From: Fictibacillus terranigra
GTDB taxonomy: Bacteria > Bacillota > Bacilli > Bacillales > Fictibacillaceae
Length of the DNA: 64,000 nucleotides
Direction: 5' to 3'
Assembly (NCBI RefSeq): GCF_030412265.1
Contig: NZ_JAUHLN010000002.1
Span: 186,001 to 250,000 of the forward strand
Both the position numbers and the translations under genes were made by a program. The notes beneath the pieces are model-generated. The model made no database searches and had not been told where the DNA came from. It saw nothing but the letters and a program-made list of their open reading frames with translations. Each line of letters starts with the position of its first letter. Positions within the stretch are counted from its first letter, which is position 1. Of this stretch, positions 32,705 to 50,753 are shown one piece after another.

Positions 32705-32733
32705 AAAAAAGCAGCGGATATCCGCTGCTTTTT
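32705..32733. terminator. Bidirectional terminator
   Basis: GCAGCGGATATCCGCTGC (32711-32728) is a perfect palindrome flanked by A7 and T5. It separates the plus-strand oxidase from the end of the long minus-strand acyl-CoA operon. Confidence 0.85.
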
Positions 32734-32739
32734 GCATGC

Positions 32740-33741
32740 TCAAGAGTTGACTTTCGCGGCCATACCGCTGAAAAGACCTTGGGCATTCTTATTAAACATC
32801 TTTTCCAATTGCTGGCCGGTTACTCCTCTTTCCTTTAAAGCCGGCAGGATGTTGAGAAAAAGGTGAGACGGTGTCCAGTTCTCAATGATCGCGGCAAGCT
32901 GGTCCGGCAACACCGGCGGTCTCCCTAGCCAAATATTCACCGTATCATGAGACAGCAAAATCTGATTTTCATAGCCGTCATCGAGCAAGGCGATTAGCGT
33001 ATCGATCCGTTCCTGATCAAATGGGGCTCCTACCAGCCCTTGCAGTCCGAATCGGTCAAAGCCAATGCGCACTCCTTGGTCCAAGACTTTCTTATGATAA
33101 GACGGGTCCGTATTGCCGCACATGTGTCCGATAATAATATTTGCGGGATCAGCACCATGGTCAAGAAGAAGCTTTGCCTGCTCAGGGCCCATCGTTCCTT
33201 CTTGTGTATGCGTTAGGATGACGATCCCTGTTTTTTGCTGAACGCTGGCTGCTGCCCGGAAAAACATGGCTTCATAATCGGTGATCTCGTCCTTGCTGGA
33301 TGCCACTTTAATAATCCCTGGTTTTATACCCGTTCCCGCAATGCCTTCTGTGATCTCGGCCAGAAACATTTCATAAATGTCCTGTTCAGCACTTCCGAGT
33401 GCCTGTCTGAATTTATAATAAGGGGTTGCTCCTTCTCCTTCATAATAAAACCCTGTGGCGCAAATGATCTGAAGTCCGGTGGCTTCTGAGACCTTTTTTA
33501 AAAAAAGAGGGTTCCGTCCGCATTCATTCGGGGTGGGATCTACGACGGTATCTACTCCATGGGATGCCATCACCTGGGCAATCTCTACAGCTTCCTTAAG
33601 CGCTGCTTCCTCATTAAAGCTTCCAAGCGTAACATCGCCTTGAAAGCCGGGATAGCCGAATATAAAATGCTCATGGATCAGTGTCTTACCAAGCTGATTT
33701 GCAGAGATAGGGCCAGTTACTGTTTCTACAATTGAACTCAT
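32740..33741 (-). CDS. Phosphotriesterase-family metal hydrolase (lactonase-like)
   Basis: TIM-barrel amidohydrolase of the phosphotriesterase family, 333 residues. The binuclear metal ligands can be placed: H23 and H25 (IHEHF), carboxylated lysine K145 (IIKVAS), H178 (LTHTQ), H206 (IGHMC) and D266 (SHD). Most bacterial members are lactonases rather than true phosphotriesterases. It is the last gene of the acyl-CoA operon, overlapping the ligase stop by four bases, so it probably hydrolyses a lactone or ester to the acid used by the adjacent ligase (inference). Confidence 0.87.
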   Translation of the reverse strand: MSSIVETVTGPISANQLGKTLIHEHFIFGYPGFQGDVTLGSFNEEAALKEAVEIAQVMASHGVDTVVDPTPNECGRNPLFLKKVSEATGLQIICATGFYYEGEGATPYYKFRQALGSAEQDIYEMFLAEITEGIAGTGIKPGIIKVASSKDEITDYEAMFFRAAASVQQKTGIVILTHTQEGTMGPEQAKLLLDHGADPANIIIGHMCGNTDPSYHKKVLDQGVRIGFDRFGLQGLVGAPFDQERIDTLIALLDDGYENQILLSHDTVNIWLGRPPVLPDQLAAIIENWTPSHLFLNILPALKERGVTGQQLEKMFNKNAQGLFSGMAAKVNS

Positions 33742-35423
33742 CGCCCGGACACCGCCTCATTTTTCAATTTTTCTTCTTCCTGAAGCTTTCTCCACAATAT
33801 TTTTCCGCTTGCCGTCGTAGGGAACGACTCTCTGAATTCAATTTGCCTCGGGTATTTATATGCCGCCATCCGCTCTTTCGCCCATTCGATGATCTCTTTT
33901 TCTGATACCCTGCCGCGATCGGTATCATTTAAAATAATAAAAGCTTTAACTGATTCACCCCGTTTTGGATCGGGAATGCCGACGACACAGGCCTGTTGTA
34001 CAGCCGGGTGGCTGTAGAGAAGCGATTCAATTTCAGTCGGCCAAACTTTAAAGCCTGAAGCATTGATCATCCGCTTGACGCGGTCGACCATAAAATAATA
34101 ACCGTCATCGTCAAATCTGCCGATATCCCCTGTCCGAAAAAAGGCTTTGCCGTCCCTTTCAAAGAAAGACTGCTGTGTTTCTTCTGGACGGTTGTAGTAG
34201 CCCTGGAACACTTGCGGTCCGGAAACGACAATTTCACCGGCTTCTCCCACTCCCAGTTCCTTTAGGGTGACGGGATCCACTATTCTTGCATCAACATCAA
34301 AGGAAGGTATACCGAGGCATTGCAGCTTTGGCCGGTCTGGCGGGTTAAAATGGGTATGAGAGATCGTCTCTGAAAGGCCGTATCCTTCGACAAACTTTAA
34401 CCCAAGCACTTGGTAAAGCTTTTCCCCGACTGCTTCCGGCAATGCCGCTCCGCCTCCAGCTATGCTTGTTAAGGACGAAAGATCATAATCACAGAGGTGA
34501 GGATTGGCCAGGAAATCGATGACCATCGTACTGATATTCACCCAATGAGTGACCTGATAAGACTGGATCGCTTCAGCTGCCGCGTTCCGATTCCAACGCG
34601 TCAGCATCACCATCGCAGAACCGGAAAAAATCGGTGCATGCATGCTATGGAGCATGCCGGTCACATGGAAAAGAGGGAGCGTGGTGAGATGAACGCTGTC
34701 GGAAGTAGCATTCATCCAGTTCACCGCGCTGACAACATTCGCCTGAATCGTCCTGTTCGTATGAACGCAGCCCTTTGGCAGACCGGTCGTGCCGGAAGTA
34801 TACGGCAAGCAAACAATATCTCCAGCTTCTCCTCTGTAGGCAGAGGGCTGATAGCCTGCCTTGAGAGCATTCCTCCACAAATGATGGTGTTCTCCTTCAA
34901 ACCGTTCGCTTTCCTCTTTTACCGTCTCTGGAAGATTCTTGCCGGTTCCTTCTGAAGGAAGGTAGTCAGAATACGCAGCGATGAGAAGGTTTTTCAGACA
35001 GGCTGCCGTTAGAAGCGGGCTGATTGAATCATATAACTCCTGCCCGATCACGGCTGATTCAATTTCACAATCTTTAATATAAAATTCCAGGTCATGTTCC
35101 GTGTTCATAGGATTAATGGGTACGACAACTGCCCTTGCTCTCATGATGGCATAGAAGGCAATAAAATACTGAGGTGAATTTTGCATAAAAAGCATCACGC
35201 GGTCACCGGCTTTTACCTTCAGCTCACTTTCCATATAGCCTGATAGAAGATCGACTTCACGGAGGAGCTCCTCATATGTATAAGAAGCCCCGTAGTAGAT
35301 CAGCGCTGTTTTTTGGGGATACCTTCTCGCGGAAACAAGGAGATTATCGTAGAGTGTTGTGTCTGGTACCGTCAGTGTTTTACTGACCCGCTTTGGCCAA
35401 AAAGGATAATGGCGAGTATTCAC
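33738..35423 (-). CDS. Acyl-CoA ligase (AMP-binding)
   Basis: ANL-superfamily acyl-CoA synthetase, 561 residues. Motifs: YTSGTTGLPKG, VEGYGLSETIS, FFRTGDIGRFDDDGY, VDRVKRMINASGFKV and the C-terminal lysine in TTASGKILWRKL. The frame opens at an ATG at 35465 without ribosome site; the GTG at 35423, 6 bases after GGAGGGG, is the better start. Resembles medium/long-chain fatty-acid ligases. It lies between quinone oxidoreductase and phosphotriesterase-like genes. Confidence 0.9.
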   Translation of the reverse strand: MNTRHYPFWPKRVSKTLTVPDTTLYDNLLVSARRYPQKTALIYYGASYTYEELLREVDLLSGYMESELKVKAGDRVMLFMQNSPQYFIAFYAIMRARAVVVPINPMNTEHDLEFYIKDCEIESAVIGQELYDSISPLLTAACLKNLLIAAYSDYLPSEGTGKNLPETVKEESERFEGEHHHLWRNALKAGYQPSAYRGEAGDIVCLPYTSGTTGLPKGCVHTNRTIQANVVSAVNWMNATSDSVHLTTLPLFHVTGMLHSMHAPIFSGSAMVMLTRWNRNAAAEAIQSYQVTHWVNISTMVIDFLANPHLCDYDLSSLTSIAGGGAALPEAVGEKLYQVLGLKFVEGYGLSETISHTHFNPPDRPKLQCLGIPSFDVDARIVDPVTLKELGVGEAGEIVVSGPQVFQGYYNRPEETQQSFFERDGKAFFRTGDIGRFDDDGYYFMVDRVKRMINASGFKVWPTEIESLLYSHPAVQQACVVGIPDPKRGESVKAFIILNDTDRGRVSEKEIIEWAKERMAAYKYPRQIEFRESFPTTASGKILWRKLQEEEKLKNEAVSGR

Positions 35424-35477
35424 AGCTTTCCCCTCCTGATAGTTGATCGAAAATGGGATCTGCATGCTATTTTGTGA

Positions 35478-36452
35478 TTATGGCTTTAAGAGCAGCTTAC
35501 CTTTAGTTTTTCTTGATTGCAGCAGGTCGTGAACCTGTGCCGCTTCTTGTAATGGGAATACATCACCAATGGTCAGCTTCAGGCTTCCTTGAGACAGATA
35601 GGTGAACAGTTCTTGCAGGCTCGGCTTTAACAAGTCCGGTCTTCTCATGATCTGCGGAAGGAAGAAACCGATAACCGACTGATTTTTCCCCATGAGATTT
35701 GAAGGATAAAACTTGCTTGGCTCACCGCTTGCGACGCCATAGATCACGAGTCTGCCGAAAACAGCGAGACATTTCATCGTTTTATGAAAGACTTCTCCCC
35801 CAGCCATCTCAAGAGCGACATCCACTCCTTTTCCGTCTGTCGCTTCAAGGACCTGTTTTTCCCAGTCTTCTTCCGTATAATTGACGGCAACATCAGCACC
35901 CAGCTGCCGTGCGAGCTCGAGTTTGTCCTCGGAACTTGCTGTGGCAATAACCTTTCCGGCTCCAAAAAGCCTTGCAAGCTGGACAGCGATTGTTCCGACT
36001 CCTCCGCCTGCTGCATGGACAAGAACGGTTTCTCCTTCCTGCATTCGCCCCATCGTCTTCAGGATATGGTAGGCGCTTAACCCTTGCAGGGGCAAGGCGG
36101 CTGCCTGCTGGAAATCAAGATGATCCTCAAGAGGAATAATCAATCTTCCGTCGGCCAATGCGTATTCTGCGTAGCCTCCCGACTCGATCAAGGTAACTAC
36201 CCTTGTACCAGGTTTTATATGAGAGGCTTTTTCACCGGTTTCAACGACGGTTCCTGCCACTTCTGCACCAGGAACAAAGGGCAAAGGAGTGGGAACGACA
36301 TATCGGCCTTCTCTGCGTGCAGTATCTGCATAGTTCACGCCAACCGCATGAATTTCAATCAGCACTTCATGGCCTTTTGGAACCGGTTTGTCGATTTCTA
36401 CATTTTCAAGGACCTGCGGGCCTCCGTATTCTTTAAATCGTACAGCTCTCAT
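35478..36452 (-). CDS. Quinone oxidoreductase-like NADPH-dependent reductase
   Basis: Medium-chain reductase (zeta-crystallin/QOR group), 324 residues. It has the GroES-like N-terminal domain (GVNYADTARREG, PGAEVAGTVVETG) and the Rossmann domain with VHAAGGGVGTIAVQLA. The zinc-ligand cysteines of true alcohol dehydrogenases are absent. It would reduce enones, quinones or enoyl derivatives with NADPH. GGAGG ribosome site; 11 bases after the crotonase gene, within the operon. Confidence 0.88.
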   Translation of the reverse strand: MRAVRFKEYGGPQVLENVEIDKPVPKGHEVLIEIHAVGVNYADTARREGRYVVPTPLPFVPGAEVAGTVVETGEKASHIKPGTRVVTLIESGGYAEYALADGRLIIPLEDHLDFQQAAALPLQGLSAYHILKTMGRMQEGETVLVHAAGGGVGTIAVQLARLFGAGKVIATASSEDKLELARQLGADVAVNYTEEDWEKQVLEATDGKGVDVALEMAGGEVFHKTMKCLAVFGRLVIYGVASGEPSKFYPSNLMGKNQSVIGFFLPQIMRRPDLLKPSLQELFTYLSQGSLKLTIGDVFPLQEAAQVHDLLQSRKTKGKLLLKP

Positions 36453-36463
36453 TTATTATCCTC

Positions 36464-37243
36464 CTATTTGCCGGTAAACACGGGCAGTCTTTTTTCTTTA
36501 AAAGCGGAAATGCCTTCTTGGTGATCTTCAGTCGAAATCATGAGTGCCTGGTTTAGACGTTCCTGCTCAAGCATCTCTTCAAGAGTAGATTGATAGGAAG
36601 CATCGATGAGCTTTTTCATTTGTCCAAACGCTGCAACGGGACCGTTAGCGAGTTTCGCAGCGAGACTGTACACTTCATCCTCTAGCCTCTCAAGTGGCGT
36701 CAAATAATTGATGACTCCTAATTGGTAAAGTCTTTCTGCTGAGATCGGCTCGGCGCTGAAAAAGAACTGCTTTGCAAGGTGAGGGCCGATAAGCTTCGGA
36801 AGGAAATAGGAGCCTCCGCCATCGGAGATCAGGCCGACCTGAGAAAAACTTAGGGCAAACTTGCTGTCTTCCGCTGCAACGATAAGATCACACGCCATCG
36901 CAAGGTTAAAGCCGGCGCCTGCAGCAAACCCATGGACGGCTGCTATAATCGGAATCTCCGTTTCCTTCATCGCGAGGATACATCGGTTAAGTTTCCCGAT
37001 ATGCTCATATACATCGTTGGGACTGGCCTGCCCCATCGTCTTCACATCGCCGCCTGCACTGAAGGAGCGGCCGGCTCCTTTGAGCACGATGACTTTAATG
37101 TCGTCCCTTGTCTGAGCTTCCAGGCACGCTTCTGCCAAACCGTTAATCATTTCTTGGCTGAAGGAATTTAAACTTTCTGGACGGTTCAAGGTTAGAATCA
37201 TAATAGGACCCTCGAATTCTACTAAAAGATGATCTTGATTCAT
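36464..37243 (-). CDS. Enoyl-CoA hydratase/isomerase family protein
   Basis: Crotonase-fold enzyme, 259 residues. GRSFSAGGDVKTM and VHGFAAGAGFNLAMACDL form the CoA-binding/oxyanion hole. The catalytic glutamate region of hydratases is replaced: LSFSQVGLISDGGGSYFL has Ser instead of Glu and an Asp two residues before GG, a pattern found in PaaG-like or enoyl-CoA isomerases. So isomerisation is more likely than hydration. GGAGGAG ribosome site; 20 bases after the SDR gene. Confidence 0.87.
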   Translation of the reverse strand: MNQDHLLVEFEGPIMILTLNRPESLNSFSQEMINGLAEACLEAQTRDDIKVIVLKGAGRSFSAGGDVKTMGQASPNDVYEHIGKLNRCILAMKETEIPIIAAVHGFAAGAGFNLAMACDLIVAAEDSKFALSFSQVGLISDGGGSYFLPKLIGPHLAKQFFFSAEPISAERLYQLGVINYLTPLERLEDEVYSLAAKLANGPVAAFGQMKKLIDASYQSTLEEMLEQERLNQALMISTEDHQEGISAFKEKRLPVFTGK

Positions 37244-37263
37244 TTTTTCTCCTCCTTCATTGA

Positions 37264-38049
37264 TTACATGATTAGCCAGCCGCCATCTGCCAGCACATCA
37301 GATCCTGTCATATAAGAGGCGTCGCTGGATGCCAGAAAAGCAATAATATTCGCGATCTCCTCCGGTTTGCCCACTCTTTTCAATGCCGTGTTCTTCTCGA
37401 TAGCTTTGACAAATTGTTCATTCTCAAGGCCTGCTTGGGTAAGAGGTGTTTCGATAAAACCGGGAGAAACAGAGTTTGCCCGGATGCCAAATGGAGACAG
37501 TTCAAGCGCAAGCGCTCTTGTAAAATTAATGACCCCCGCCTTAGCGGCACTGTAATGCGGGATAAGCGCACCTGCCTGATGCCCGGACAGTGAAGCCACA
37601 TTGACAATAGCTCTGTTCTTCCGATTTGGGTTTGCGGCTTCTTTTTTAGAGCCGTCTGCCATAATGTTTCCAAGAATGCGGGAAACGAGAAACACGCTCT
37701 TTAAATTTGCGCTCTGAACCTGATCCCATTCACTGGCTGCTGTCTCCATGATTCTCGTCTGGGAGCTGCCTCCCGCATTATTGATCAGAACATGCAGATC
37801 ACCGAATTGCTGATGGACATGTTCTGCCAACTGTTCAACTTCTTTTTCACTTGTTACGTCTGCAGCAAAGGTTTCGGGTCGAGGAGCGCCTGTTATCCTG
37901 CTGATCTCGACGGCCGTGTTTTCAAGCTTGGATCGGGTTCGTCCTACCAAGATGACCTGTGCCCCTTCTTTAGCCAGTTTTATGGCAGCAGCTTGTCCGA
38001 TTCCGCTTCCGGCTCCAGTAATCATTGCAATCGATTGTGAGAATTTCAT
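37264..38049 (-). CDS. SDR-family oxidoreductase
   Basis: Short-chain dehydrogenase of 261 residues, probably acting on a hydroxyacyl or keto intermediate. Cofactor loop TGAGSGIG, NNAGGS, catalytic serine in NVASLSGHQ and YSAAK, C-terminal MTGSDVLADGGWL. AAAGGAG ribosome site. First of three SDRs in the operon, just downstream of the FadE-like dehydrogenase. Confidence 0.88.
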   Translation of the reverse strand: MKFSQSIAMITGAGSGIGQAAAIKLAKEGAQVILVGRTRSKLENTAVEISRITGAPRPETFAADVTSEKEVEQLAEHVHQQFGDLHVLINNAGGSSQTRIMETAASEWDQVQSANLKSVFLVSRILGNIMADGSKKEAANPNRKNRAIVNVASLSGHQAGALIPHYSAAKAGVINFTRALALELSPFGIRANSVSPGFIETPLTQAGLENEQFVKAIEKNTALKRVGKPEEIANIIAFLASSDASYMTGSDVLADGGWLIM

Positions 38050-38061
38050 GATCCTTCTCCT

Positions 38062-39837
38062 TTAGCAAACAAAGGCATTTGCTTCATATTGTTTCTCTGC
38101 GATCATCCGGTTTCTTGAAGCCCTCCTGCCAAATTGATGACAGCGGTTACAAGATTGATGGATTAGCATGTTGAGCTGATTTCTTTTCTCTCCCCCTGTC
38201 AGCTCATGTACAAGCTTTCGTGACAGCATTTCAGCTTCCCACAGGCTGTCTTCTAATACTGTATGGGTAAGGGCTGTTTTGAGAGTTGCCTTTTCCATCC
38301 CGTATTTCTTGACAGCTTTTATAGTACGGAAAACAGCAGATTCAGCTGCATAAAGCGTGATGGCTAAATCCGCGAGAGCCATCAGTGCCTCCTGTTCCTG
38401 AATCAGTCCTTCACCAAATGCTTCATAGGCCAAGCCCGCAGAGAAAAGAAACAGATGGCGTATGGTTTCTACTGCGTGTAATTCTGCACCCATAAGAGAT
38501 GTGCCTTGTTCAGCCTCCTGCTGCAAGGATTGTATCGCACCATGGATGGATGATTGAAGGTCGATCTCACCTTTTATTGCTTTCCTGAAAAGGTGGGTTG
38601 GTATGAGCAGCCGGTTAATTTCGTTCGTACCTTCAAAAATACGGTTGATCCTTGAGTCTCGGTACATCTGTTCTATCCCGTATTCTTTTATGAATCCTGC
38701 GCCTCCATGCAGCTGAAGCGCTTCATCCGCGACATAATCCAACGTTTCCGATCCATAGACTTTACAGATCGCACATTCTGCAGAGTATTCACTCATGCGT
38801 TTTCCGACGGTTTGTAAATCTGAAGACTCATCAAGATCATGAAGAGCATCTTCAAGCAGGCTCGCGGTCCGGTATTGCAGCGATTCTGCCGCATACAGGC
38901 GGGCAGCCATTCTGGCGATTTTCTCTTTCGTTGCGGGGAAGTCTGCGATCCGCTGCTTGAATTGCATGCGATCCTGAATGAACTGCACTGCTTTCTGATG
39001 TCCGAATTTAGCAGCTCCCATCGTGGCCGATCCAAGATTAAACCGTCCCAGGTTCAGAACATTAAGGGCAATCACATGTCCTTTACCGATTTCTCCAAGA
39101 AGGTTTTCTGCCGGGACAAGGCAATCTTCTAATATGACCGATCGGGTCGACGAACCTTTGATTCCCATTTTGTTCTCTTCGGGTCCGAGGGACAAGCCGG
39201 GAAAATCCTTTTCGACGATGAACGCTGTAAACTTGGTGCCGTCCACTTTGGCATACACAATAAAAGTGTCGGAGAATACGGCGTTTGTAATATAGATCTT
39301 TGTGCCGTTTAAGATATAATGGGTTCCTTCTTCGTTTAGCACTGCAGTTGTTTGGGCTGCCAGTGCATCCGAACCGGCGTTCGGTTCCGTAAGACAATAC
39401 GCGCCGATGTAATCACCAGAAGCCATTTTTGGAAGATACCTCTTCTTTTGATCAGGCGTGCCGAAATACGTGATGGGAAGTGTAGCGATGCATGTGTGAT
39501 TGGAGTGCGCCACTCCGTATCCGCTCGAAGGGCCAATCATCTCCCCAACGATTCCCTTGCTGATCTTATCAAGGCCAAGCCCGCCGTATCGTTCTGGAAT
39601 GCTGTGAGCCAAAAGGCCAAGATCCCCCGCTTTTTTTAATAGGGCAACAATGCAGTCAAAATCCTGGTTTTCGATGCTTTCACGAAAAGGGTAGACTTCC
39701 TTTTCAATAAATTGGCGTGCCGTTGTCTTAATCATGACGTGTTCCTCAGTAAAATCCTCAGGGGTAAACAAGTGTTCCTCATCCAGGTTTGAGAATAAAA
39801 ATTCAGAGCCTTTCACTCTCGTTCCGGTATTTTCCAC
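38062..39837 (-). CDS. Acyl-CoA dehydrogenase, long FadE-like form
   Basis: FAD-dependent acyl-CoA dehydrogenase of 591 residues with a C-terminal helical extension (from about residue 430), as in B. subtilis FadE. Family motifs: GAYCLTEPNAGSDA, KIYITNAVFSD, LQLHGGAGFIKEYGIEQ with YRDSRINRIFEGTNEI, where the catalytic glutamate (FEGT) resides. Two starts are possible: ATG 39852, whose own second codon overlaps the GGAGGGG, or GTG 39837, 7 bases after it; I use the GTG. It lies 20 bases after comB. Confidence 0.9.
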   Translation of the reverse strand: MENTGTRVKGSEFLFSNLDEEHLFTPEDFTEEHVMIKTTARQFIEKEVYPFRESIENQDFDCIVALLKKAGDLGLLAHSIPERYGGLGLDKISKGIVGEMIGPSSGYGVAHSNHTCIATLPITYFGTPDQKKRYLPKMASGDYIGAYCLTEPNAGSDALAAQTTAVLNEEGTHYILNGTKIYITNAVFSDTFIVYAKVDGTKFTAFIVEKDFPGLSLGPEENKMGIKGSSTRSVILEDCLVPAENLLGEIGKGHVIALNVLNLGRFNLGSATMGAAKFGHQKAVQFIQDRMQFKQRIADFPATKEKIARMAARLYAAESLQYRTASLLEDALHDLDESSDLQTVGKRMSEYSAECAICKVYGSETLDYVADEALQLHGGAGFIKEYGIEQMYRDSRINRIFEGTNEINRLLIPTHLFRKAIKGEIDLQSSIHGAIQSLQQEAEQGTSLMGAELHAVETIRHLFLFSAGLAYEAFGEGLIQEQEALMALADLAITLYAAESAVFRTIKAVKKYGMEKATLKTALTHTVLEDSLWEAEMLSRKLVHELTGGEKRNQLNMLIHQSCNRCHQFGRRASRNRMIAEKQYEANAFVC

Positions 39838-39857
39838 GCAATGCCCCTCCATTCTGG

Positions 39858-40610
39858 TTATGTTTGTTTCTGCATATGATCTCGTGCAATCGTAGCTTTC
39901 CCGTCTTCCAACACGGCAACAACGGGAGCAGCATCTTCCGTTGAGGCATATTGCAAATCGCTGTACAAGCCGTGTCTGGCAAATAAATGACCAACATAGG
40001 ATGACTCAAGAAGCTCACGTCCCATTTGCTGGTTGCCTTTGTACAAATAATAGGCCGTTCGGGCAGCATCACTCAGCTGCAGAGACACATCAGCCAGTTC
40101 GATTAAAGAAGTGATAAGATGCCCCGCTCCATATACATCTTCCAGGCTGACTTCTCCAGAATTACCGGAGCAGATGATAACGATTGTGCTTCCCTGCTGG
40201 TGCTTCAGCAGAGCCTTGGCCGTTTCTTTATTGTTAAGCAAGGAAGAAATATATACTTTTTGTGCACCTTCCGTATTTCGGAGGGCCACTGTGCCGTTCG
40301 TCGTGGATAAGATGAGTGTTTTTCCCTGGACTTGGCCGCTCAGCAATAAAGGGCTCGGATATAGAAATCCGGTAATAGGCTTCGCGTGGAGCTCTCCCGC
40401 CAGTATGCAACCTCCCTTTTGATACATTTTTGATAACTCCCGCGCCTCGTTGTGGTCTTTCACAGGAATAACACCTTTTGCTCCTTGATACAACGCAGAT
40501 ACGATGGCCGTGGTGGCCAGCAAGACATCAAGCACGACGGCAACCTTGCTATTTTCAGCCATCTTTTCCGGTAGAATCTCTTCCTTCTTCAAAAGCAAAT
40601 GGACTTTCAT
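39858..40610 (-). CDS. comB: ComB-family 2-phosphosulfolactate phosphatase
   Basis: Mg-dependent acid phosphatase family first known from coenzyme M synthesis, where it dephosphorylates 2-phosphosulfolactate. The 250-residue protein has VVLDVLLATTAIVSAL near residues 25-40, LAGELHAKPI, LSTTNGTVAL and IICSGNSGEVSLEDVYGAG, all matching the family. Bacillaceae have no coenzyme M pathway and no sulfolactate genes are visible here, so the real substrate is probably another phosphorylated hydroxyacid. It sits between the APH-like kinase and FadE-like genes. GAGGTGA ribosome site. Confidence 0.88.
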   Translation of the reverse strand: MKVHLLLKKEEILPEKMAENSKVAVVLDVLLATTAIVSALYQGAKGVIPVKDHNEARELSKMYQKGGCILAGELHAKPITGFLYPSPLLLSGQVQGKTLILSTTNGTVALRNTEGAQKVYISSLLNNKETAKALLKHQQGSTIVIICSGNSGEVSLEDVYGAGHLITSLIELADVSLQLSDAARTAYYLYKGNQQMGRELLESSYVGHLFARHGLYSDLQYASTEDAAPVVAVLEDGKATIARDHMQKQT

Positions 40611-40619
40611 CTATTCACC

Positions 40620-41678: not shown

Positions 41679-41705
41679 ATCTTCCTCCTCCCCACTCAAT
41701 TAATC

Positions 41706-42125
41706 TCAAGTTTCTGACTCTTGAGGCTGCAATATTTGATTTCTTTCCAAAGCGTCCCGCAGAAAGTCTGGAATATTCGCGGTTTGCTGTTTTTTAAAAT
41801 CAAAATATACAATAACAGCATTTCCTCTCGCAACTAATTCTTCTGTTTCTTCTTTATAGATTTCATGCACTAACGTAAAGCTTTTGGTGCCTATTTTACA
41901 TACACCGGTACGCACCAGCAGTCTATCGTTAAAATATCCTTGTGCCATAAAGTCACATTTTGTGGAAGCTAGAATAAAGCTCCATTCGTTCGTGTTCATA
42001 TCCAGTCCAAGCGATTCAAAGCACCGGATCCTCGCTTCCTCAAGATAAATAAAATAACTCGTGTTGTTGATGTGGCCCAGGGCATCCGTTTCACAGAAGC
42101 GGACGGTCAGTTCAATTTCATGCAT
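41706..42125 (-). CDS. Hotdog-fold acyl-CoA thioesterase
   Basis: 4HBT/YbgC-type thioesterase of 139 residues that would hydrolyse acyl-CoA. Signature FCETDALGHINNTSYFIYLEE, split as ETDALGHINN and YFIYLEEAR, includes the catalytic aspartate and the HINN turn. ATG at 42125 after AAAGGGAG; the frame starts further upstream inside the crotonase gene without a ribosome site. May release stalled acyl-CoA. Confidence 0.88.
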   Translation of the reverse strand: MHEIELTVRFCETDALGHINNTSYFIYLEEARIRCFESLGLDMNTNEWSFILASTKCDFMAQGYFNDRLLVRTGVCKIGTKSFTLVHEIYKEETEELVARGNAVIVYFDFKKQQTANIPDFLRDALERNQILQPQESET

Positions 42126-42154
42126 ATTTACTCTCCCTTTCTGCCTCTTACCGA

Positions 42155-42934
42155 TCAACGGTGCTGAAAGGCCGGTTTTCTTTTTTCGAAAAATGCCTGA
42201 ACGCCTTCTTTGATATCTTCCGTTTGGAACACTTCCTGAAACAGGGACGCTTCTACTTCAATGCCTTCGTTTAATGATTTGTTCAGGCCTTCATCCACAG
42301 ATTGTTTGATTCTGGAAAGCGCCTGAAGCGAATGGCGGGTGATCTTACTGGCCAGCAGTTTGGCGCTTGCCAGTCCTTCTCCGGTTGGGACCACTTGGTT
42401 GACCAGTCCGATTCGTTCGGCGGCAGCGGCTGTAATCGGCTCACCGGTAAACATCATTTCTTTTGCTTTCGCTTCCCCTATTAAGCGAGGAAGACGCTGT
42501 GTCCCGCCCCCTCCAGGAAACAATCCGAGAGTGACTTCAGGCAGTCCGATCCGGCTCTGTTCCTCTGCTATCCTCAAATCGCATGAAAGGGCAAGCTCAC
42601 AGCCGCCTCCAAGAGTCAAACCGTTCAATACAGCGATGGTCGGTTTTGGAAAGGAATCAATGCGGTTCAGGATATAGTGAACCTCCATCACTTGCGCTTT
42701 CATGTCAGGGTTTCCCATCATCTCCGGAAACTCCTTAATGTCAGCCCCGGCGACGAATGCTTTTTTTCCCGCTCCTGTTAGGACGACGGCTACGGTATCT
42801 CGGTCATTCTCGAGCTCCATGAACGTATCATCCAGCTCCTGGAATACAGACCTGCTCAATACGTTCAGCGGCGGATTGTTAATCGTAATAACAGCGAGCT
42901 GATTTTGTTTGACCACTTCAAGATATTTTCCCAT
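42155..42934 (-). CDS. Enoyl-CoA hydratase
   Basis: Crotonase-fold hydratase of 259 residues with both catalytic glutamates: LPEVTLGLFPGGGGTQRL (first) and AKEMMFTG (second). Oxyanion hole KKAFVAGADIKEF and LGGGCELALSCDL. Ends KRKPAFQHR, as is usual. Its ATG directly follows the stop of the hydroxyacyl-CoA dehydrogenase, so the two probably form consecutive beta-oxidation steps. Confidence 0.93.
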   Translation of the reverse strand: MGKYLEVVKQNQLAVITINNPPLNVLSRSVFQELDDTFMELENDRDTVAVVLTGAGKKAFVAGADIKEFPEMMGNPDMKAQVMEVHYILNRIDSFPKPTIAVLNGLTLGGGCELALSCDLRIAEEQSRIGLPEVTLGLFPGGGGTQRLPRLIGEAKAKEMMFTGEPITAAAAERIGLVNQVVPTGEGLASAKLLASKITRHSLQALSRIKQSVDEGLNKSLNEGIEVEASLFQEVFQTEDIKEGVQAFFEKRKPAFQHR

Positions 42935-43819
42935 TTATTGTTTCACTCCTTCAGTTTCATAGTTGTACCAGCCTTTGCCCGTCTTTCTCCCTAGATGCCC
43001 TTGCTTTACCTTCTCTTCAATACAAGCAAACGGTTTGTCTTCTGGATCACCGGTCTCTTTATAGCGCTGTTCCATAACAAAGTAGCCGACATCAATACCG
43101 GATAAATCCATCAGTTCAAACGGGCCGATCGGGTGGTTCAATGCTTTTCGGCAGATGATATCAATATCTCTAAAGTCAGCGATGCCCTGTTCATACAGGT
43201 AAACAGCTTCTTTTTGAAGTGCGCCTAATATGCGGTTGGCAATGAACCCGGATATCTCTTTTTTGAGCAGAACGGCAGTACGATTGATCCGTTTGGAGAT
43301 CTCCATGGTCAGACGCGCCGTTTCTTCAGAGGTCTTGTCGCTCATCACTACTTCCACACAATCCATCACGAGCGGGGGGAAGAAGAAATGCATGTTGACT
43401 ACCTTATCCGCACGGCTTGTCTCTGAAGCAACTAAACTATTGACGATGGTGGAGCTGTTTGTCGCAAAAATGGTGTGCTCTGGCGCTAGCTGATCAAGCT
43501 TCGAAAATACTTCCCGCTTTACATCCAATTTTTCTACAACAGCCTCAATGACAAAATCAGTATTTCTGACCGCATCCTCAAAGCTGGTCGTAAAACGCAG
43601 CTTTTGAAATGCTGCTTCTTTCTCATCGGCAGAAAGCCTTCCTTTAGACACCCATTTGTCCATAATTGCATGGAGTTTGTCCTGCGCAGCAGCAAGGGCC
43701 TGTTCCTGGACGTCCTGTATGATGGTTCCAAATCCGCCAAGCGCACAAAGCATGGCGATCTGGTGTCCCATCTGCCCTGCACCTAGTACTGTAATCTGCC
43801 GTACCTCTTCTGCTTTCAT
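42935..43819 (-). CDS. 3-hydroxyacyl-CoA dehydrogenase
   Basis: NAD-dependent dehydrogenase of 294 residues oxidising 3-hydroxyacyl-CoA to 3-ketoacyl-CoA. N-terminal NAD site VLGAGQMGHQIAML, then TNSSTIV, catalytic His in VNMHFFFPPLVM, and C-terminal domain GFIANRILGAL, NHPIGPFELMDLSG. Resembles Hbd/PaaH. ATG 43819 follows AAGGAGG and starts one base after the TetR stop, so the regulator and the enzyme are coupled. Confidence 0.92.
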   Translation of the reverse strand: MKAEEVRQITVLGAGQMGHQIAMLCALGGFGTIIQDVQEQALAAAQDKLHAIMDKWVSKGRLSADEKEAAFQKLRFTTSFEDAVRNTDFVIEAVVEKLDVKREVFSKLDQLAPEHTIFATNSSTIVNSLVASETSRADKVVNMHFFFPPLVMDCVEVVMSDKTSEETARLTMEISKRINRTAVLLKKEISGFIANRILGALQKEAVYLYEQGIADFRDIDIICRKALNHPIGPFELMDLSGIDVGYFVMEQRYKETGDPEDKPFACIEEKVKQGHLGRKTGKGWYNYETEGVKQ

Positions 43820-43820
43820 C

Positions 43821-44411
43821 TTATTGCCTCCTTTTTTCGTTTGAATCTTTCTGTCCAAGGCCATTGAGGATCATCTCTACAAAAGATTCAGCAACTTCAC
43901 GTTCAGACATACGTCCTTCAGGATTGAACCACTGATAGCTCCAGTTCGCTGCACCAAGGATCCCAAATGTTACAATGGACGCGTCCAGATCTGAACGGAG
44001 TTCACCGTTTTCCATACCGTCACGGATCAGGTTCTCCAGGTTGATGCGGAAGCGGTCTCTTTTAGGGATGATCTGTGAGAGGCGCTCTTCGTTCAGGTTC
44101 TTGATTTCTCTGAAAAACACTTTGGCGCTTGCCCCGGCCTGTCTGATGTTGCCGATCAGCGCATAAACGATCTCAAACAGCTTCTCTTTGCTGGATTTCA
44201 TCTCGTCAGCAATGATACGTTCCTGCTGGTTCAACAGCTCATCAATATATCCGTTGTGGATGTTCATCAACAGCTCTTCTTTGCTTGAAAAATAATAATA
44301 GAATGTCCCCTTTGTCACCCCGAGCGCATCTACGATATCCTGGATGGATGTTTCACTGAATCCTTTCTTCTCAAACAGACGGATGCTGCATTCCGTAATT
44401 TTTTCCTTCAT
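43821..44411 (-). CDS. TetR/AcrR-family regulator (FadR/PfmR-like)
   Basis: Repressor-type protein of 196 residues. N-terminal helix-turn-helix: RLFEKKGFSETSIQDIVDAL then GVTKGTFYYYFSSKEEL; the C-terminal ligand-binding domain has SAKVFFREIKNLNE. Fatty-acid metabolism regulators of this family bind acyl-CoA. ATG 44411 follows GAGGAC; a TTG nine codons earlier is less likely. It lies inside the acyl-CoA operon; the dyad at 49016-49031 is a candidate operator, which would make the operon self-regulated. Confidence 0.87.
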   Translation of the reverse strand: MKEKITECSIRLFEKKGFSETSIQDIVDALGVTKGTFYYYFSSKEELLMNIHNGYIDELLNQQERIIADEMKSSKEKLFEIVYALIGNIRQAGASAKVFFREIKNLNEERLSQIIPKRDRFRINLENLIRDGMENGELRSDLDASIVTFGILGAANWSYQWFNPEGRMSEREVAESFVEMILNGLGQKDSNEKRRQ

Positions 44412-44449
44412 GTCAGTGTCCTCGCATTCTTTTATCAATCTCAGGAAAA

Positions 44450-44478
44450 ATTATATCATTCCATTCCTCTCCTTTTAA
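44450..44478 (-). promoter_or_regulatory. Possible internal promoter for the TetR gene
   Basis: A TATAAT (44450-44455) lies 39 bases before the ATG at 44411 in a 98-base gap; the -35 (ATTAAA, about 17 bases away) is poor. A weak internal promoter is possible. Confidence 0.25.
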
Positions 44479-44509
44479 TTTCCGATCTATAAATCTATAA
44501 AAAATGCTG

Positions 44510-46135
44510 CTATGTTGTCTTTACTCTTGCTTCATCGCGCAAAGCCCTTCTTAGAATCTTGCCGACATTCGTTTTGGGCAGATGGCCGCGGAACTCGATG
44601 ACGTGCGGAATCTTATATGCCGAAAGGTTTTGCTTGCAGTAATGGATGATCTCATCTACCGTCGCTGTTTTTCCTTCTTTTAGTACGAGGATAGCTTTTA
44701 CATCCTCTCCTCTGTAGGGATCCGGAACCCCAATGACGACAGCTTCCTGAACGGCGGGGAATTCATAAAGGACTTCTTCGACCTCCCGGGGATAGATATT
44801 GTAGCCGCTTGCGATAATAAGATCTTTCTTGCGGTCCATAATATAGACATACCCTTCCTCATCCATTCGGGCGATGTCCCCGGTATACAGCCACCCGTCC
44901 CGAAGCGTATGTTCGGTCTCCTCCGGCATGTTCCAGTATCCTTTCATGACTTGGGGACCCTTGATGATCAACTCTCCCAGCTCACCGGTCTTCACATCTT
45001 CTGTTCCGGCTGCCAAGTCCACTATGCGGTAATCAGTGGATGGGAGCCCTATGCCGACGCTTCCTTCTTTTCGTTCCGAGAACATCGGATTGCAATGTGT
45101 GGTCGGTGATGCTTCAGATAAACCATAGCCTTCTAAAATCTTTGAACCTGTCTTTCTTTCAAACTCTTGAATCAGTTCCACAGGCATCGGAGCACTTCCG
45201 CTGTTGCACACTTTTATGCTGCCAATTCCGTATTTTTCCGCTTTCGGATGGTTGGTGATCGCCACATACATGGTTGGGACTCCTGGGAAAACGGTAGGCT
45301 GTTCTTTTTTTATGGTTTGAAGAACCTCATCGATATCAAACCTCGGCAGCATGATCGATTCCGATGCGGTATAGATGGCGAGGTTCATGCAGGACGTCAT
45401 GCCAAACACATGAAAAAGGGGGATGACGGTTAAATACTTCTCCTTGCCAATCTCAATGTTGAACTTAAAAAATTCATACGACTGCAATACATTAGCGATG
45501 ATATTTTTATGTGTAAGCATGGCGCCTTTGGAACGTCCGGTTGTACCTCCGGTATATTGAAGGACCGCGACATCCCGTTCCGAGACGATCCCTGCAGGAT
45601 CAATCCGTCCGCTGCCCAACTGTAAAAATTGAGAAAAAGAAAAATCTTGTGAAAGATCCTTTTGTTGTCCGTTTGGCTCAAGACTAACAGTGATGATGCG
45701 TTTCAAAGCAGAAGCCGGCTGCAATTTTTTTATTTGTCCATAAAGGGGTTCATACACAACAATGGTATCCGCCCCGCTGTCTTCAAGGATATGCTGCAGC
45801 TCCCGCTCAACGAGCAACGGATTAACTTGGGTAACAACAGCCCCTGCCGACAGCACCCCATAATAAGCAATTACATATTGAGGGCAGTTCGGCAGCATGA
45901 TGGCTACACGATCTCCAGCTTCCACACCCGTCTGCTGCAAAGCGGATGCAAAGCGGTTTACGAGATGTTGCAGTTCCTGGTATGTAGTCTTCTGGCCGTA
46001 AAATGAAAGGGCATTTAAATCTGGATACCGATCTGCTGTCTGTTGAAGCAGCTGCGGGATGGACATATCAGGAATCTGTAAATCTGGCTGAATGGTTTCA
46101 GGATAATGGCTTTTCCAAACTTTGTTTTCGCTCAT
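44510..46135 (-). CDS. Long-chain acyl-CoA ligase (LcfA/LcfB-like)
   Basis: AMP-forming acyl-CoA synthetase of 541 residues, typical of Bacillus long-chain fatty-acid ligases. Motifs: QYTGGTTGRSKGA, LEGYGLSEASP, GWLYTGDIARMDEEGY, MDRKKDLIIASGYNI and catalytic lysine in TNVGKILRRAL. The second of two adjacent ATGs (46135) is better spaced from GGAGGG. It precedes the regulator by 98 bases. Confidence 0.92.
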   Translation of the reverse strand: MSENKVWKSHYPETIQPDLQIPDMSIPQLLQQTADRYPDLNALSFYGQKTTYQELQHLVNRFASALQQTGVEAGDRVAIMLPNCPQYVIAYYGVLSAGAVVTQVNPLLVERELQHILEDSGADTIVVYEPLYGQIKKLQPASALKRIITVSLEPNGQQKDLSQDFSFSQFLQLGSGRIDPAGIVSERDVAVLQYTGGTTGRSKGAMLTHKNIIANVLQSYEFFKFNIEIGKEKYLTVIPLFHVFGMTSCMNLAIYTASESIMLPRFDIDEVLQTIKKEQPTVFPGVPTMYVAITNHPKAEKYGIGSIKVCNSGSAPMPVELIQEFERKTGSKILEGYGLSEASPTTHCNPMFSERKEGSVGIGLPSTDYRIVDLAAGTEDVKTGELGELIIKGPQVMKGYWNMPEETEHTLRDGWLYTGDIARMDEEGYVYIMDRKKDLIIASGYNIYPREVEEVLYEFPAVQEAVVIGVPDPYRGEDVKAILVLKEGKTATVDEIIHYCKQNLSAYKIPHVIEFRGHLPKTNVGKILRRALRDEARVKTT

Positions 46136-46191
46136 CATTCACCCTCCAGATTAATAAAATTGATGAGTTGGCTTTTCGGCAGAATTAGCAT

Positions 46192-46944
46192 TCAAAAGAT
46201 CAATCCGCCTCCATCCACCGATAAAGTGGTACCTGTGATAAAAGATGCTTCTTCGGAGGCGAGAAACAGCACGGCTGTTGCTACTTCCTCCGGTGATCCG
46301 ATTCTCCCGAGAGCATTTGCGGAAGAGATGATCGGCCACTTTCTTTCATTGTTCTTCCAGTCATCGATGATGCTCGTATCGATCACTCCTGGAGCAACAG
46401 CATTGACACGGATATTATGTCTGCCATACTCAAGCGCAGCGTTCTGAGTGAGAAGGACTACACCGCCCTTTGATGCATTATACGCGGATACGTATTTTTG
46501 CCCTTTTAACCCAAGCAGACTTGAAGTATTGATGATCACCCCCCCACCAGCTTTGATCAGTTCGGGAACGCCATGTTTGATGCCGAGGAAGACTCCTTTT
46601 AAATTAATGTCAACAATGCGGTCCCATTCGCTTTCGGCGAGATCTGTGCTCTTCACTTCAGGGTTACCGATGCCGGCATTATTGAACAAAATATCCAGAG
46701 CGCTAAATTCGCTAATCGCCGCGTCGATCATCTTTTTTACCTGGATGGAGTCTGTAACATCTGTTTTAACAAAGAACGCTGATCCATTTTGCTCTCTTAT
46801 GAGATGGACCGTCTCTTCCCCAAGCTCTTCGTTGACATCAGCGACAACAATATTGGCTCCTTCTTTGGCAAAAAGAAGGGCTGTCGCTCTTCCAATGCCC
46901 CCTCCTCCACCGGTTATGATAGCTGTTTTCCCTTGCAGTCTCAT
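46192..46944 (-). CDS. SDR-family oxidoreductase
   Basis: Short-chain dehydrogenase of 250 residues. TGGGGGIGRATAL cofactor loop, NNAGIGNP, NTSSLLGLKGQ, YNASKGG, C-terminal FITGTTLSVDGGGL. FabG/cyclohexanol-dehydrogenase-like. AAGGGGG ribosome site. Follows a second SDR gene by 22 bases, possibly a heteromeric or sequential pair for a hydroxy/keto intermediate. Confidence 0.88.
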   Translation of the reverse strand: MRLQGKTAIITGGGGGIGRATALLFAKEGANIVVADVNEELGEETVHLIREQNGSAFFVKTDVTDSIQVKKMIDAAISEFSALDILFNNAGIGNPEVKSTDLAESEWDRIVDINLKGVFLGIKHGVPELIKAGGGVIINTSSLLGLKGQKYVSAYNASKGGVVLLTQNAALEYGRHNIRVNAVAPGVIDTSIIDDWKNNERKWPIISSANALGRIGSPEEVATAVLFLASEEASFITGTTLSVDGGGLIF

Positions 46945-46966
46945 ACGTGCCCCCTTATTGGATTCT

Positions 46967-47740
46967 TTACATGGCGTGTGCCCCGCCGTCCACGATCAGG
47001 ACGTCGCCGGTTACATAATTTGAAGCGTTGGAAGCAAGAAACAATGCCGCACCTTTAAGATCATCTTCACTTCCAAAACGGTTAAGCGGTGTTCCACCAA
47101 GAATGGCATCCTTACCGTGCTCAATCAGCACCTTGGACATTTTGGTCGGGAAAAACCCTGGCGCAATCGCGTTAACATTGATATTGTGCTGTCCCCATTT
47201 CACGGCGAGATCCTTGGTGAACGTAATGACCGCACCTTTGCTTGTGTTGTAGCCGATCGTATCCATAAAGCGAGGATCCGTGCCTCCCAGTCCGGCAACA
47301 GATGCAATATTGATGATTTTGCCGGATTTTTGTTCAATCATCACTTTTCCAGCAGCCTGGCTCATTAAGAATGTGCCCGTCACGTTAACGTCGATGACCT
47401 TTTTCCACGCTTCATAAGGCATTTCAGCAGCGGGTGCTCCCCATGTCGCTCCACTGTTGTTCACGAGAATATCAATCGCACCAAATTCCTTCAGTGTTTG
47501 ATCGACCACAGCATGAACATCTTGCGGATTTGTAATATCGCACTTTAAAGCAAGTGTCTTCGCTCCAAGATTTTTTAATCCCTCTGCTGTTTCCTCACAT
47601 GCCTCCACTTTCCTGGAGCAGAGCACGATGTTGGCGCCAGCTTCAGCGAACGCTTCGGCGATCTGCCGTCCTAATCCCCTGCCTCCGCCAGTTACAATCG
47701 CTGTTTTGCCTGTTAACTCAAACAGCTTGAGTACATTCAT
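46967..47740 (-). CDS. SDR-family oxidoreductase (FabG/gluconate-5-dehydrogenase-like)
   Basis: Short-chain dehydrogenase of 257 residues with TGGGRGLGRQIAEAF, NNSGATWG (Ser replacing the usual Ala), IASVAGLGG, YNTSKGA and ITVDGGAHAM-like end (DVLIVDGGAHAM). AAAGGAG ribosome site. Lies 27 bases after the first acyl-CoA dehydrogenase of the operon. Confidence 0.88.
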   Translation of the reverse strand: MNVLKLFELTGKTAIVTGGGRGLGRQIAEAFAEAGANIVLCSRKVEACEETAEGLKNLGAKTLALKCDITNPQDVHAVVDQTLKEFGAIDILVNNSGATWGAPAAEMPYEAWKKVIDVNVTGTFLMSQAAGKVMIEQKSGKIINIASVAGLGGTDPRFMDTIGYNTSKGAVITFTKDLAVKWGQHNINVNAIAPGFFPTKMSKVLIEHGKDAILGGTPLNRFGSEDDLKGAALFLASNASNYVTGDVLIVDGGAHAM

Positions 47741-47767
47741 GGTTCGACTCTCCTTTGTTGCAGAAAT

Positions 47768-48994
47768 TTAATGGACGAGTAATTCTTGAGGATATTTTTT
47801 CAGTTCAAGTCTTGCGAGCTGAGCACGGTGGACTTCATCAGGTCCATCAGCCAGTCTTAATGTTCTTGCATTCGCCCACTGGGCTGCAAGCGTAGAGTCG
47901 TCCGACACCCCTGCCCCTCCAAATGCTTGTATGGCACGGTCCAAAACACGGAGCGCCATGGACGGAGCAACGACCTTAATCATTGCAATCTCTTGTTTCG
48001 CTTCTTTATTGCCGACGGTGTCCATCATATAAGCCGCTTTTAATGTCAAAAGCCGTGCCTGCTCGATCTCGATCCTCGAGTCTGCAATCCATTCGCGGAT
48101 GACGCCTTGATCGGCAATTGGTTTTCCGAAGGCTGTACGTTTTTGAACACGCTTACATAATTCTTCAAGCGCTCTCTCCGCTGCTCCGATCAGCCGCATA
48201 CAATGATGGATTCTGCCTGGGCCGAGTCTTCCTTGAGCGATGGCAAAGCCTTTTCCTTCATCCCAAATCATATTTTCAGCGGGTACTCTGACATTTTCAT
48301 AAGTAATCTCTCCATGTCCATGCGGGGCATGATCATAACCGAATACCGAAAGCATCCTTTCGACCTTCACGCCAGGAGTATCCAAAGGAACCAGGATCAT
48401 GGATTGCTGCTCATGCCGGTTAGCGCCAGGGTTGGTCTTTCCCATCACAATCGCAATTTTGCAACGCGGGTCTCCAGCTCCCGACGACCACCATTTACGT
48501 CCATTGACGACATAATCATCTCCATCCCTCTCGATGCGTGCTTGGATATTTGTTGCATCTGAGGAAGCGATTTCGGGCTCTGTCATAGAAAAACAGGATC
48601 TGATCGAGCCTTCTAAAAGGGGTGTAAGCCACTTTTCTTTTTGTTGTTCTGTTCCGTAACGGACAAGAACCTCCATATTTCCGGTATCCGGCGCACTGCA
48701 GTTAAAGATTTCCGGCCCGATAAGGGAACGTCCCATGATTTCACAAAGCGGGGCATATTCCTGATTGGTTAGGCCGGCACCATATTCGCTTTCAGGCAGG
48801 AACAGGTTCCATAGACCTTCTTTTCTCGCTTTTTCCTTTAATTCTTCCATGATCGGCGGAACCGCACTCCATCTGTTCTTTTGTTCATTAAGCTGCTTTT
48901 CGTAAAGCGCCTCATTTGGATAGACATACTGTTCCATAAAGCGGGTGATCCGTTTCTGCAAATCTTTCACTTTTTCTGAATATGAAAAATTCAT
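47768..48994 (-). CDS. Acyl-CoA dehydrogenase, ACAD10/11-like
   Basis: FAD-dependent acyl-CoA dehydrogenase of 408 residues. [33 protein letters not shown] and [20 protein letters not shown], with the C-terminal [12 protein letters not shown], match the ACAD11-type group, in which the dehydrogenase works with an APH kinase domain on 4-hydroxyacyl substrates. Starting ATG 48994 (second of two) is 9 bases from GAGGAG. It is the first gene of the operon, behind the promoter and operator at 49016-49075. Confidence 0.9.
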
Positions 48995-49015
48995 GACCTT
49001 CATCTCCTCTCAACT

Positions 49016-49031
49016 TACTAACCGGTCGGTA
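49016..49031. promoter_or_regulatory. Dyad operator, TetR/PfmR-like
   Basis: TACTAACCGGTCGGTA: TAC-NN-ACCGGT-NN-GTA, twofold symmetric around ACCGGT. The reverse strand TACCGACCGGTTAGTA resembles the TACCGACCG-type site I recall for the TetR regulator PfmR of Thermus. It lies 16 bases downstream of the -10 element, as a repressor site would. Confidence 0.65.
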
Positions 49032-49047
49032 TGTTAGATTAATTAAA

Positions 49048-49075
49048 AGTATACTCCATCCACTCAAATAATCAA
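49048..49075 (-). promoter_or_regulatory. SigA promoter of the acyl-CoA operon
   Basis: Minus strand: TTGATT (49070-49075), 16-base spacer, TATACT (49048-49053); the dyad operator follows downstream. Confidence 0.7.
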
Positions 49076-49699: not shown

Positions 49700-50686
<987 letters not shown>

Positions 50687-50753
50687 ATTGTTCATCCTCT
50701 CCAAATTAGTTAAACCCATTCCTGCAATGTACCTTTACCCTGTTTTCCACTAT

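Follow-up and report, generated by a model that had tools for sequence, protein, structure and literature searches.

We analysed a 64,000-nucleotide stretch of the Fictibacillus terranigra genome (contig NZ_JAUHLN010000002.1, positions 186,001 to 250,000; hereafter the window), in which sixteen genes, all on the minus strand and running from 48994 to 32740, make up one candidate operon. We consider it probable, judging from the sequences, that this is a dedicated and separately regulated catabolic operon for lactones and 4-hydroxy acids, in which a protein of the ComB fold would act as partner to a kinase of 4-hydroxyacyl-coenzyme A (CoA) esters. Its assignment as a Gram-positive variant of the known lva and ACAD10/11 kind is well supported, and the ComB-fold partner of the kinase is its least expected part. 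A preliminary description of this DNA had proposed lactone opening, CoA activation, 4-phosphorylation, elimination and then beta-oxidation, and this predicted route is likewise well supported by comparison. The material compared was 299 genomes from the order and 151 from the class, together with 80 named loci and 21 plasmid regions from outside the Bacilli; the 80 loci were picked by kinase similarity and say nothing about how often the kinase is missing.

Read 5' to 3', the genes encode an ACAD11-type acyl-CoA dehydrogenase (ACAD), two short-chain dehydrogenases/reductases (SDRs), a ligase, a TetR regulator, a 3-hydroxyacyl-CoA dehydrogenase, a crotonase, a thioesterase, an aminoglycoside phosphotransferase (APH)-type kinase, a ComB-family protein, FadE, an SDR, a crotonase, a quinone-oxidoreductase-type medium-chain dehydrogenase/reductase (MDR), a ligase and a phosphotriesterase (PTE)-like protein. 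Intergenic gaps range from -44 to 71 bp if the longest open reading frames are used, and with the preferred starts the largest gap is 98 bp, before the TetR gene. The one-strand block of sixteen closely spaced genes in the preliminary description is therefore borne out. The genes it listed are all present; it omitted the TetR and MDR genes, both of which are needed to reach sixteen. The starts it gave for the kinase (41678) and the ACAD (48994) are preferred over the longest open reading frames because GGAGGA- and GAGAGGAG-like sequences upstream provide better ribosome sites.

The best match of the kinase is structure entry 9o56, labelled ‘aminoglycoside phosphotransferase’ (E 2.8e-150), for which no publication naming the code was found in the literature collection searched; the mouse ACAD11 kinase domain matches at E 1.1e-43, and the nearest named kinase, from Fictibacillus sp. 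FJAT-27399, is 89% identical. Residues D220, N225, R86 and R176 of the mouse ACAD11 kinase have been tied to kinase function, D220 and N225 as the catalytic Asp and Asn and R176 and R86 as arginines on the CoA side (Rashan et al., PMC12440821). D214, N219 and R171 of the window's kinase align opposite mouse D220, N225 and R176, and these three residues together with R77 are invariant in all 31 aligned kinases. R77 precedes the alpha-C glutamate (E78), and counting along the alignment places it opposite mouse residue 84, so that its equivalence with R86 is not secured.

The ACAD matches 4hr3 (E 2.8e-147) and mouse ACAD11 (E 1.9e-142), with the next kind of acyl-CoA dehydrogenase at 3.4e-45. In mouse ACAD11, R626, H634 and R637 (HCMR) have been tied to the phosphate, along with R631 and the base D753 (PMC12440821). 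Equivalents of all of these are present in the stretches at 254 and 380 of the ACAD, whereas FadE, the second dehydrogenase of the operon, keeps the usual Glu (RIFEG) rather than an Asp base. Alignment of the products of 40620-41678 and 47768-48994 with the ACAD10/11 kind thus found close relatives with ACAD11 active-site equivalents in place. A close relationship of the two proteins to LvaA/LvaC and ACAD10/11 is strongly supported, and the same similarity and diagnostic residues strongly support their proposed role as a 4-hydroxyacyl-CoA dehydroxylation pair. Parts of ACAD10 have been replaced in vitro by bacterial relatives, and the ACAD10 reaction is reported not to have required an addition, apparently an electron acceptor (Paquay et al., PMC11342911). 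Kinase/ACAD clusters also occur elsewhere. On a 690-kb plasmid of Cytobacillus spongiae (L089, 8671-14763) one is accompanied by two MaoC-type hydratases and flanked by thiamine-biosynthesis and sulfate-assimilation genes, and four genomes of the order (G311, G337, G230 and G190) hold three to six kinase matches each.

The last gene of the operon encodes a PTE-like protein that groups with DR0930 and with entries labelled ‘phosphotriesterase’, all of them reaching E 2e-125 or better; the next group lies at 1e-46. Among these entries are 3orw, 3ojg and 4h9u, which we take to be the Geobacillus kaustophilus enzyme GkaP. The protein has H23, H25, K145, H178, H206 and D266, presumably the ligand positions of the binuclear metal site, as well as Y99 and R230. 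Tyr99, the lactonase tyrosine, and Arg230 are named for GkaP, for which delta-decanolactone was the best substrate (9.9e5 /s/M), against 7.3e4 for gamma-hexyl-gamma-butyrolactone, and which prefers medium-chain delta-lactones (PMC4338136).

Both linkage and co-occurrence connect this lactonase to the kinase. In the order sample (lactonase E <= 1e-60, kinase E <= 1e-80) the lactonase was found in 42 of the 299 genomes and the kinase in 137, and all 42 lactonase genomes also had the kinase (hypergeometric 1e-16). Genomes from the same group do not make independent samples, and the safer count is that by genus: the kinase occurs in 19/19 lactonase genera compared with 57/116 overall (2e-7). The class sample gave the same picture, with the kinase in 12/12 lactonase genomes against 44/151 overall (1e-7). 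The two genes lie within 21 kb of each other in at least 24 of the 42 order genomes, and the lactonase falls inside the fetched stretch at 12 of the 80 named loci. The lactonase and the kinase belong together, and the lactone input suggested in the preliminary description gains support from the lactonase's kind and from this association. We also considered a quorum-quenching unit, in which the lactonase would open acyl-homoserine lactones and the operon would burn the acyl chain. PTE-like lactonases are often assayed on such substrates, but neither Pfam nor NCBIfam identifies an acylase or amidase among the sixteen genes, and this explanation, which would leave the kinase and the ACAD11-type enzyme unaccounted for, is highly improbable.

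The gene directly behind the kinase belongs to the ComB family (Pfam 2-ph_phosp, E 2.2e-60). The preliminary description had listed it as a ComB phosphatase without giving it a role, and the fold stands: the AlphaFold model (predicted local distance difference test score, pLDDT, 95.6) matches 1vr0 with a template-modelling (TM) score of 0.89 and a root-mean-square deviation of 1.6. The character of a 2-phosphosulfolactate enzyme is doubtful: all eight NCBIfam 2-phosphosulfolactate phosphatase models score the window protein under cut-off, for example at 100.2 against 175.05 bits. Compared with 1vr0 the protein shares D28, E73, T104-T107, N126, E157 (D in 1vr0), D158 and D181, whereas R31, R74, N85 and C222 are replaced. 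At 44 of the 80 named loci a ComB-fold gene immediately follows the kinase, a place that any other window gene takes at no more than eight; of the 49 kinase places in the class sample, 26 have a ComB-fold gene within 300 bp and 30 have one within 5 kb.

In order to compare ComB proteins with and without this neighbour we aligned 73 rows linked to a kinase (within about 1.4 kb) and 34 unlinked rows, 31 from genomes and three from solved structures. The class sample gave 81 ComB places, of which 60 were fetched besides the window's own; the remaining 20 are all more than 5 kb from any listed kinase place. All 73 linked rows keep D28, G72, E73, T104, N105, G106, T107, N126, G149, E157, D158 and D181. 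At position 31, in contrast, linked rows have L in 70 of 73 cases and R in none, while unlinked rows have R in 29, C in two, K in two and L in one. R74 occurs in 6/73 linked but 31/34 unlinked rows, position 85 is P in 72/73 linked and N in 32/34 unlinked rows, and C222 is found in 0/73 and 30/34, respectively. Clustering the linked rows at 97% identity left 70 clusters, one of them uniting a named locus with a further genome, and did not change the signature.

A tree of 86 rows, built with the four signature columns removed, placed 43 linked rows in one clade (support 96) and eight linked rows together with L126 and L113 in a second (support 93), while 30 unlinked rows joined 1vr0 and 2yyv in a third (support 95). 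L126, the lone unlinked row with L31, and L113, which lies 4.7 kb from a kinase and was placed in neither group, both carry the linked signature and are nested in this second, linked clade. The tree came from a short search, is unrooted, has 2z0j on a long branch and uses 22 of the 44 named linked rows. A sulfolactate enzyme therefore seems an unlikely identity for the product of the ComB gene, which has the ComB fold, is changed at otherwise conserved residues and is tied to the kinase. It could be argued from the Pfam match and the 1vr0-like fold that the gene serves 2-phosphosulfolactate, as in spore sulfolactate metabolism, and stands here by chance, but the NCBIfam scores, the near or complete loss of R74 and R31 from linked relatives, the separate clades and the position directly behind the kinase make this very unlikely. 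A dead enzyme is not favoured either, because the acidic/TNGT core kept in every linked row makes an altered site likelier than an erased one. Most likely, as far as the alignment and model suggest, the protein would either dephosphorylate stray 4-phosphoacyl compounds or restrain the kinase. Among the matches listed in a literature search for ComB beside this kinase, no paper bore the phosphatase's name.

Phosphatase folds of other kinds also occur beside this kinase. In the account of the Pseudomonas citronellolis lva cluster lvaB was not found and a histidine phosphatase gene lies beside the kinase (PMC6692424), so that a phosphatase-family gene adjoins the kinase there as it does here, of histidine type in the one and ComB fold in the other. 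We saw a histidine phosphatase beside the kinase in 7 of the 21 non-Bacilli plasmid regions, namely those of Deinococcus radiodurans, D. grandis, Azospirillum, Pseudoalteromonas, a Rhodobacteraceae strain and two Sulfitobacter. The last four of the 21 were picked after the pattern had been noticed (the first 17 gave five), and Sulfitobacter pontiacus and Sulfitobacter SK025 were picked with the histidine phosphatase already visible. All seven keep RHG and have Ser (TSGG or SSGG) at the position where we would expect the second catalytic His; three of the five histidine phosphatases in the F. terranigra genome were inspected and have SHG or THG there. A phmmer search at 1e-4 found no histidine phosphatase beside the kinase in Bacilli, but the search also missed the genome's own histidine phosphatases and therefore carries little weight. 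No phosphatase-fold neighbour was seen in 13 annotated plasmid regions, in one unannotated region (a weak search) or at 36 of the 80 loci.

In ACAD10 the HAD domain has an incomplete DxD motif and negligible phosphatase activity and restrains the kinase (PMC11342911); ACAD11 is without a HAD domain. That three unrelated phosphatase folds are found next to the same kinase, and that each departs from what is standard in its family, suggests a common need to keep 4-phosphoacyl-CoA in check. We therefore propose, tentatively and as something less than an even prospect, that the 4-hydroxyacyl-CoA kinase has repeatedly acquired a phosphatase-fold partner (ComB in Bacilli, a histidine phosphatase in Deinococcus and Proteobacteria, the HAD domain in ACAD10), each off the family-standard active site in the members examined, and that these may provide a general control or repair of the 4-phosphoacyl-CoA pool, either as re-tooled phosphatases or as pseudophosphatases that throttle the kinase.

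An imperfect palindrome, ACCGACCGGTTAGT, ends 22 bp upstream of the ATG at 48994. An exact search of the 4.97-Mb genome with its degenerate pattern ACYRACYRGTYRGT gave one match, and within the window the site remains alone when one mismatch is allowed. A backward control pattern gave four matches, so the single match is not an enrichment, but it does mean that there is no second target in the genome at that stringency. At 68 of the 80 related loci there is a site with at most one mismatch to ACYRACCGGTYRGT, against 0.02 per locus in simple shuffles, and at 47 of 57 loci it lies within 120 bp upstream of the ACAD11 gene. Of the 80 loci, 57 have both the TetR gene and the site, 11 have only the site, six have only the TetR gene and six lack both. 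We infer that the operon's TetR binds the palindrome.

These data bear on whether the genes form an ordinary operon for beta-oxidation of long-chain fatty acids, controlled by a FadR-like TetR, with the kinase, ACAD11-type gene and lactonase as passengers. FadE scores above its Bacillus cut-off, two FadD-like ligases, hydratases and a 3-hydroxyacyl-CoA dehydrogenase are present, and FadR is the best named family for the regulator. However, the TetR reaches only 69.6 bits against the FadR cut-off of 200, and a search of the window for a Bacillus FadR consensus, with up to three mismatches allowed, found no site (0.6 expected). The palindrome with its single exact match, the lack of a thiolase in the operon (seven thiolase places, one of them weak, lie elsewhere in the genome) and the position of the ACAD11-type gene first behind the operator also speak against it, as does retention of that gene at 57/80 kinase loci compared with 35/80 for FadE. 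We regard such an operon as unlikely.

The Pseudomonas putida lva operon (lvaABCDE) has in common with the operon an LvaA-type kinase, an LvaC-type ACAD, a CoA ligase and an SDR (PMC6692424). These counterparts would also suit a short-chain operon of the lva type for levulinate or gamma-valerolactone in a Gram-positive organism. In P. putida, however, LvaB, a 12-kDa kinase partner, is required, and the regulator is the sigma-54 type LvaR (PMC6692424), whereas the operon here has no gene of LvaB size and no LvaR, and adds a TetR, a lactonase, FadE, the ComB-fold partner and a full beta-oxidation set, which itself argues against short-chain substrates. DUF6285, a tentative candidate for LvaB, scored over cut-off in 0/151 class genomes and is not in the annotation of the 20 annotated plasmid regions. 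The medium-chain side chains favoured by GkaP (PMC4338136) point the same way, and a levulinate-type operon is distinctly improbable. ACAD10 and ACAD11 of mouse and human share with the operon proteins the kinase residues equivalent to mouse D220, N225 and R176 and the ACAD active-site residues named above; the two activities are separate proteins in the operon, and where ACAD10 has its HAD domain the operon has a ComB fold beside the kinase. Finally, GkaP is treated as a lone enzyme in the parts of PMC4338136 consulted, whereas its relative here sits with a kinase.

The route we propose for lactones and 4-hydroxy acids, predicted in each reaction and substrate from gene content, residues and linkage, would begin with the lactonase opening alkyl lactones, gamma-lactones giving 4-hydroxy acids and delta-lactones 5-hydroxy acids, and the ligases would convert these acids to CoA esters. 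The kinase would place phosphate on the 4-hydroxyl of 4-hydroxyacyl-CoA, and the ACAD, with its Asp base, would expel it to give 2-enoyl-CoA with no net use of an electron acceptor. The hydratases, dehydrogenase, SDRs and FadE would then carry beta-oxidation onward, with thiolase supplied from elsewhere in the genome, and the ComB-fold protein, as partner of the kinase, might clear stray 4-phosphoacyl compounds or hold the kinase back. Plain beta-oxidation can manage 5-hydroxy acids after one turn but not 4-hydroxy acids; one turn on 5-hydroxyacyl-CoA would give 3-hydroxyacyl-CoA, so that dehydroxylation would be unnecessary. Having both enzyme sets would suit an operon that deals with gamma- and delta-lactones in mixture, or with mid-chain hydroxy fatty acids stalled at the 4-hydroxy stage. 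A possible natural source would be hydroxylated fatty acids that stall at this stage of beta-oxidation and then lactonise. At eight Planococcus-type loci (L044, L046, L050, L053, L061, L064, L079 and L085) a cytochrome P450-type gene, identified by Pfam for L044 and by the heme motif in all eight, lies directly behind the kinase with no ComB there, a hint that hydroxylated fatty acids may be a source.

Several observations weigh against this assignment. GkaP favours delta-lactones (PMC4338136), whose 5-hydroxy acids ACAD10 does not phosphorylate, no phospho-product having been reported from 5- or 6-hydroxyhexanoate (PMC11342911). No gene of LvaB size is among the sixteen. The co-occurrence statistics treat related genomes as independent. 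Of the 137 order genomes with the kinase, 95 lack the lactonase, and ComB is missing at 36 of the 80 loci, implying that both are optional. None of the 10 order-sample genomes of the same genus or family has the kinase or the lactonase, but named Fictibacillus loci (L009-L012) do carry the kinase, and the unit is therefore patchy.

The operon's features are collected in Table 1. Promoter and terminator scans of the window were overall not richer than shuffles (26 vs 21.0, standard deviation 4.8, and 13 vs 16.4, standard deviation 4.3, respectively). Upstream of the operon lie an aldo/keto reductase gene (49700-50719), found in the same place in the four Fictibacillus loci L009-L012, and a gene for an S-adenosylmethionine decarboxylase of the Escherichia coli type (51976-52794; TIGR03331, 445.8 bits vs cut-off 255.8), here in a Bacillales genome.

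Table 1. Features of the candidate operon and its flanks, in window coordinates; roles are predictions.
Feature	Position	Strand	Basis
Sigma-70-like promoter, TTGATT-16-TATACT, ahead of operon	49048..49075	-	9/12 consensus matches; consensus match only
Operator-like imperfect palindrome, candidate site of operon's TetR	49017..49030	.	Pattern search
ACAD11/LvaC-type acyl-CoA dehydrogenase, Asp base; putative phosphate elimination from 4-phosphoacyl-CoA	47768..48994	-	Similarity and residues
SDR, possible LvaD counterpart	46967..47740	-	PRK08213, 401 bits vs cut-off 279; at 36/80 loci
SDR	46192..46944	-	Profile searches
Acyl-CoA ligase A, FadD-like	44510..46138	-	Profile searches
TetR regulator (TetR_C_24), FadR-like	43821..44411	-	Below FadR cut-off; ATG at 44411
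3-Hydroxyacyl-CoA dehydrogenase, likely start 43819	42935..43864	-	Profile searches and start inspection
Enoyl-CoA hydratase	42155..42934	-	Profile searches
Hot-dog thioesterase, YbgC/FadM-like but under that family's cut-off	41706..42125	-	ATG start with ribosome site
LvaA/ACAD11-type APH kinase, predicted substrate 4-hydroxyacyl-CoA	40620..41678	-	D214, N219, D234, R171 conserved
ComB-fold protein, candidate kinase partner; altered residues L31, L74, P85, A222	39858..40610	-	Pfam, alignment, tree, AlphaFold model
Bacillus-type FadE acyl-CoA dehydrogenase, ordinary Glu	38062..39852	-	786.8 bits vs cut-off 600
SDR	37264..38049	-	Profile searches
Crotonase	36464..37243	-	Profile searches
MDR quinone/enoyl reductase, PIG3-like	35478..36452	-	286.3 bits vs cut-off 296.8
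Acyl-CoA ligase B	33738..35465	-	PRK08314, 856 bits vs cut-off 705
PTE-like lactonase, GkaP/DR0930 type, last gene	32740..33741	-	Metal-ligand and lactonase residues (see text)
Terminator-like hairpin and T-run, after last gene	32710..32726	-	Motif scan

If the proposed function is correct, a pathway known from Pseudomonas and mammals would extend into the Bacillales, and lactonases of the GkaP kind would gain a physiological route. The kinase with its free-standing phosphatase-fold protein would, moreover, offer a simple and separable bacterial model for the question of what the HAD domain does in ACAD10.

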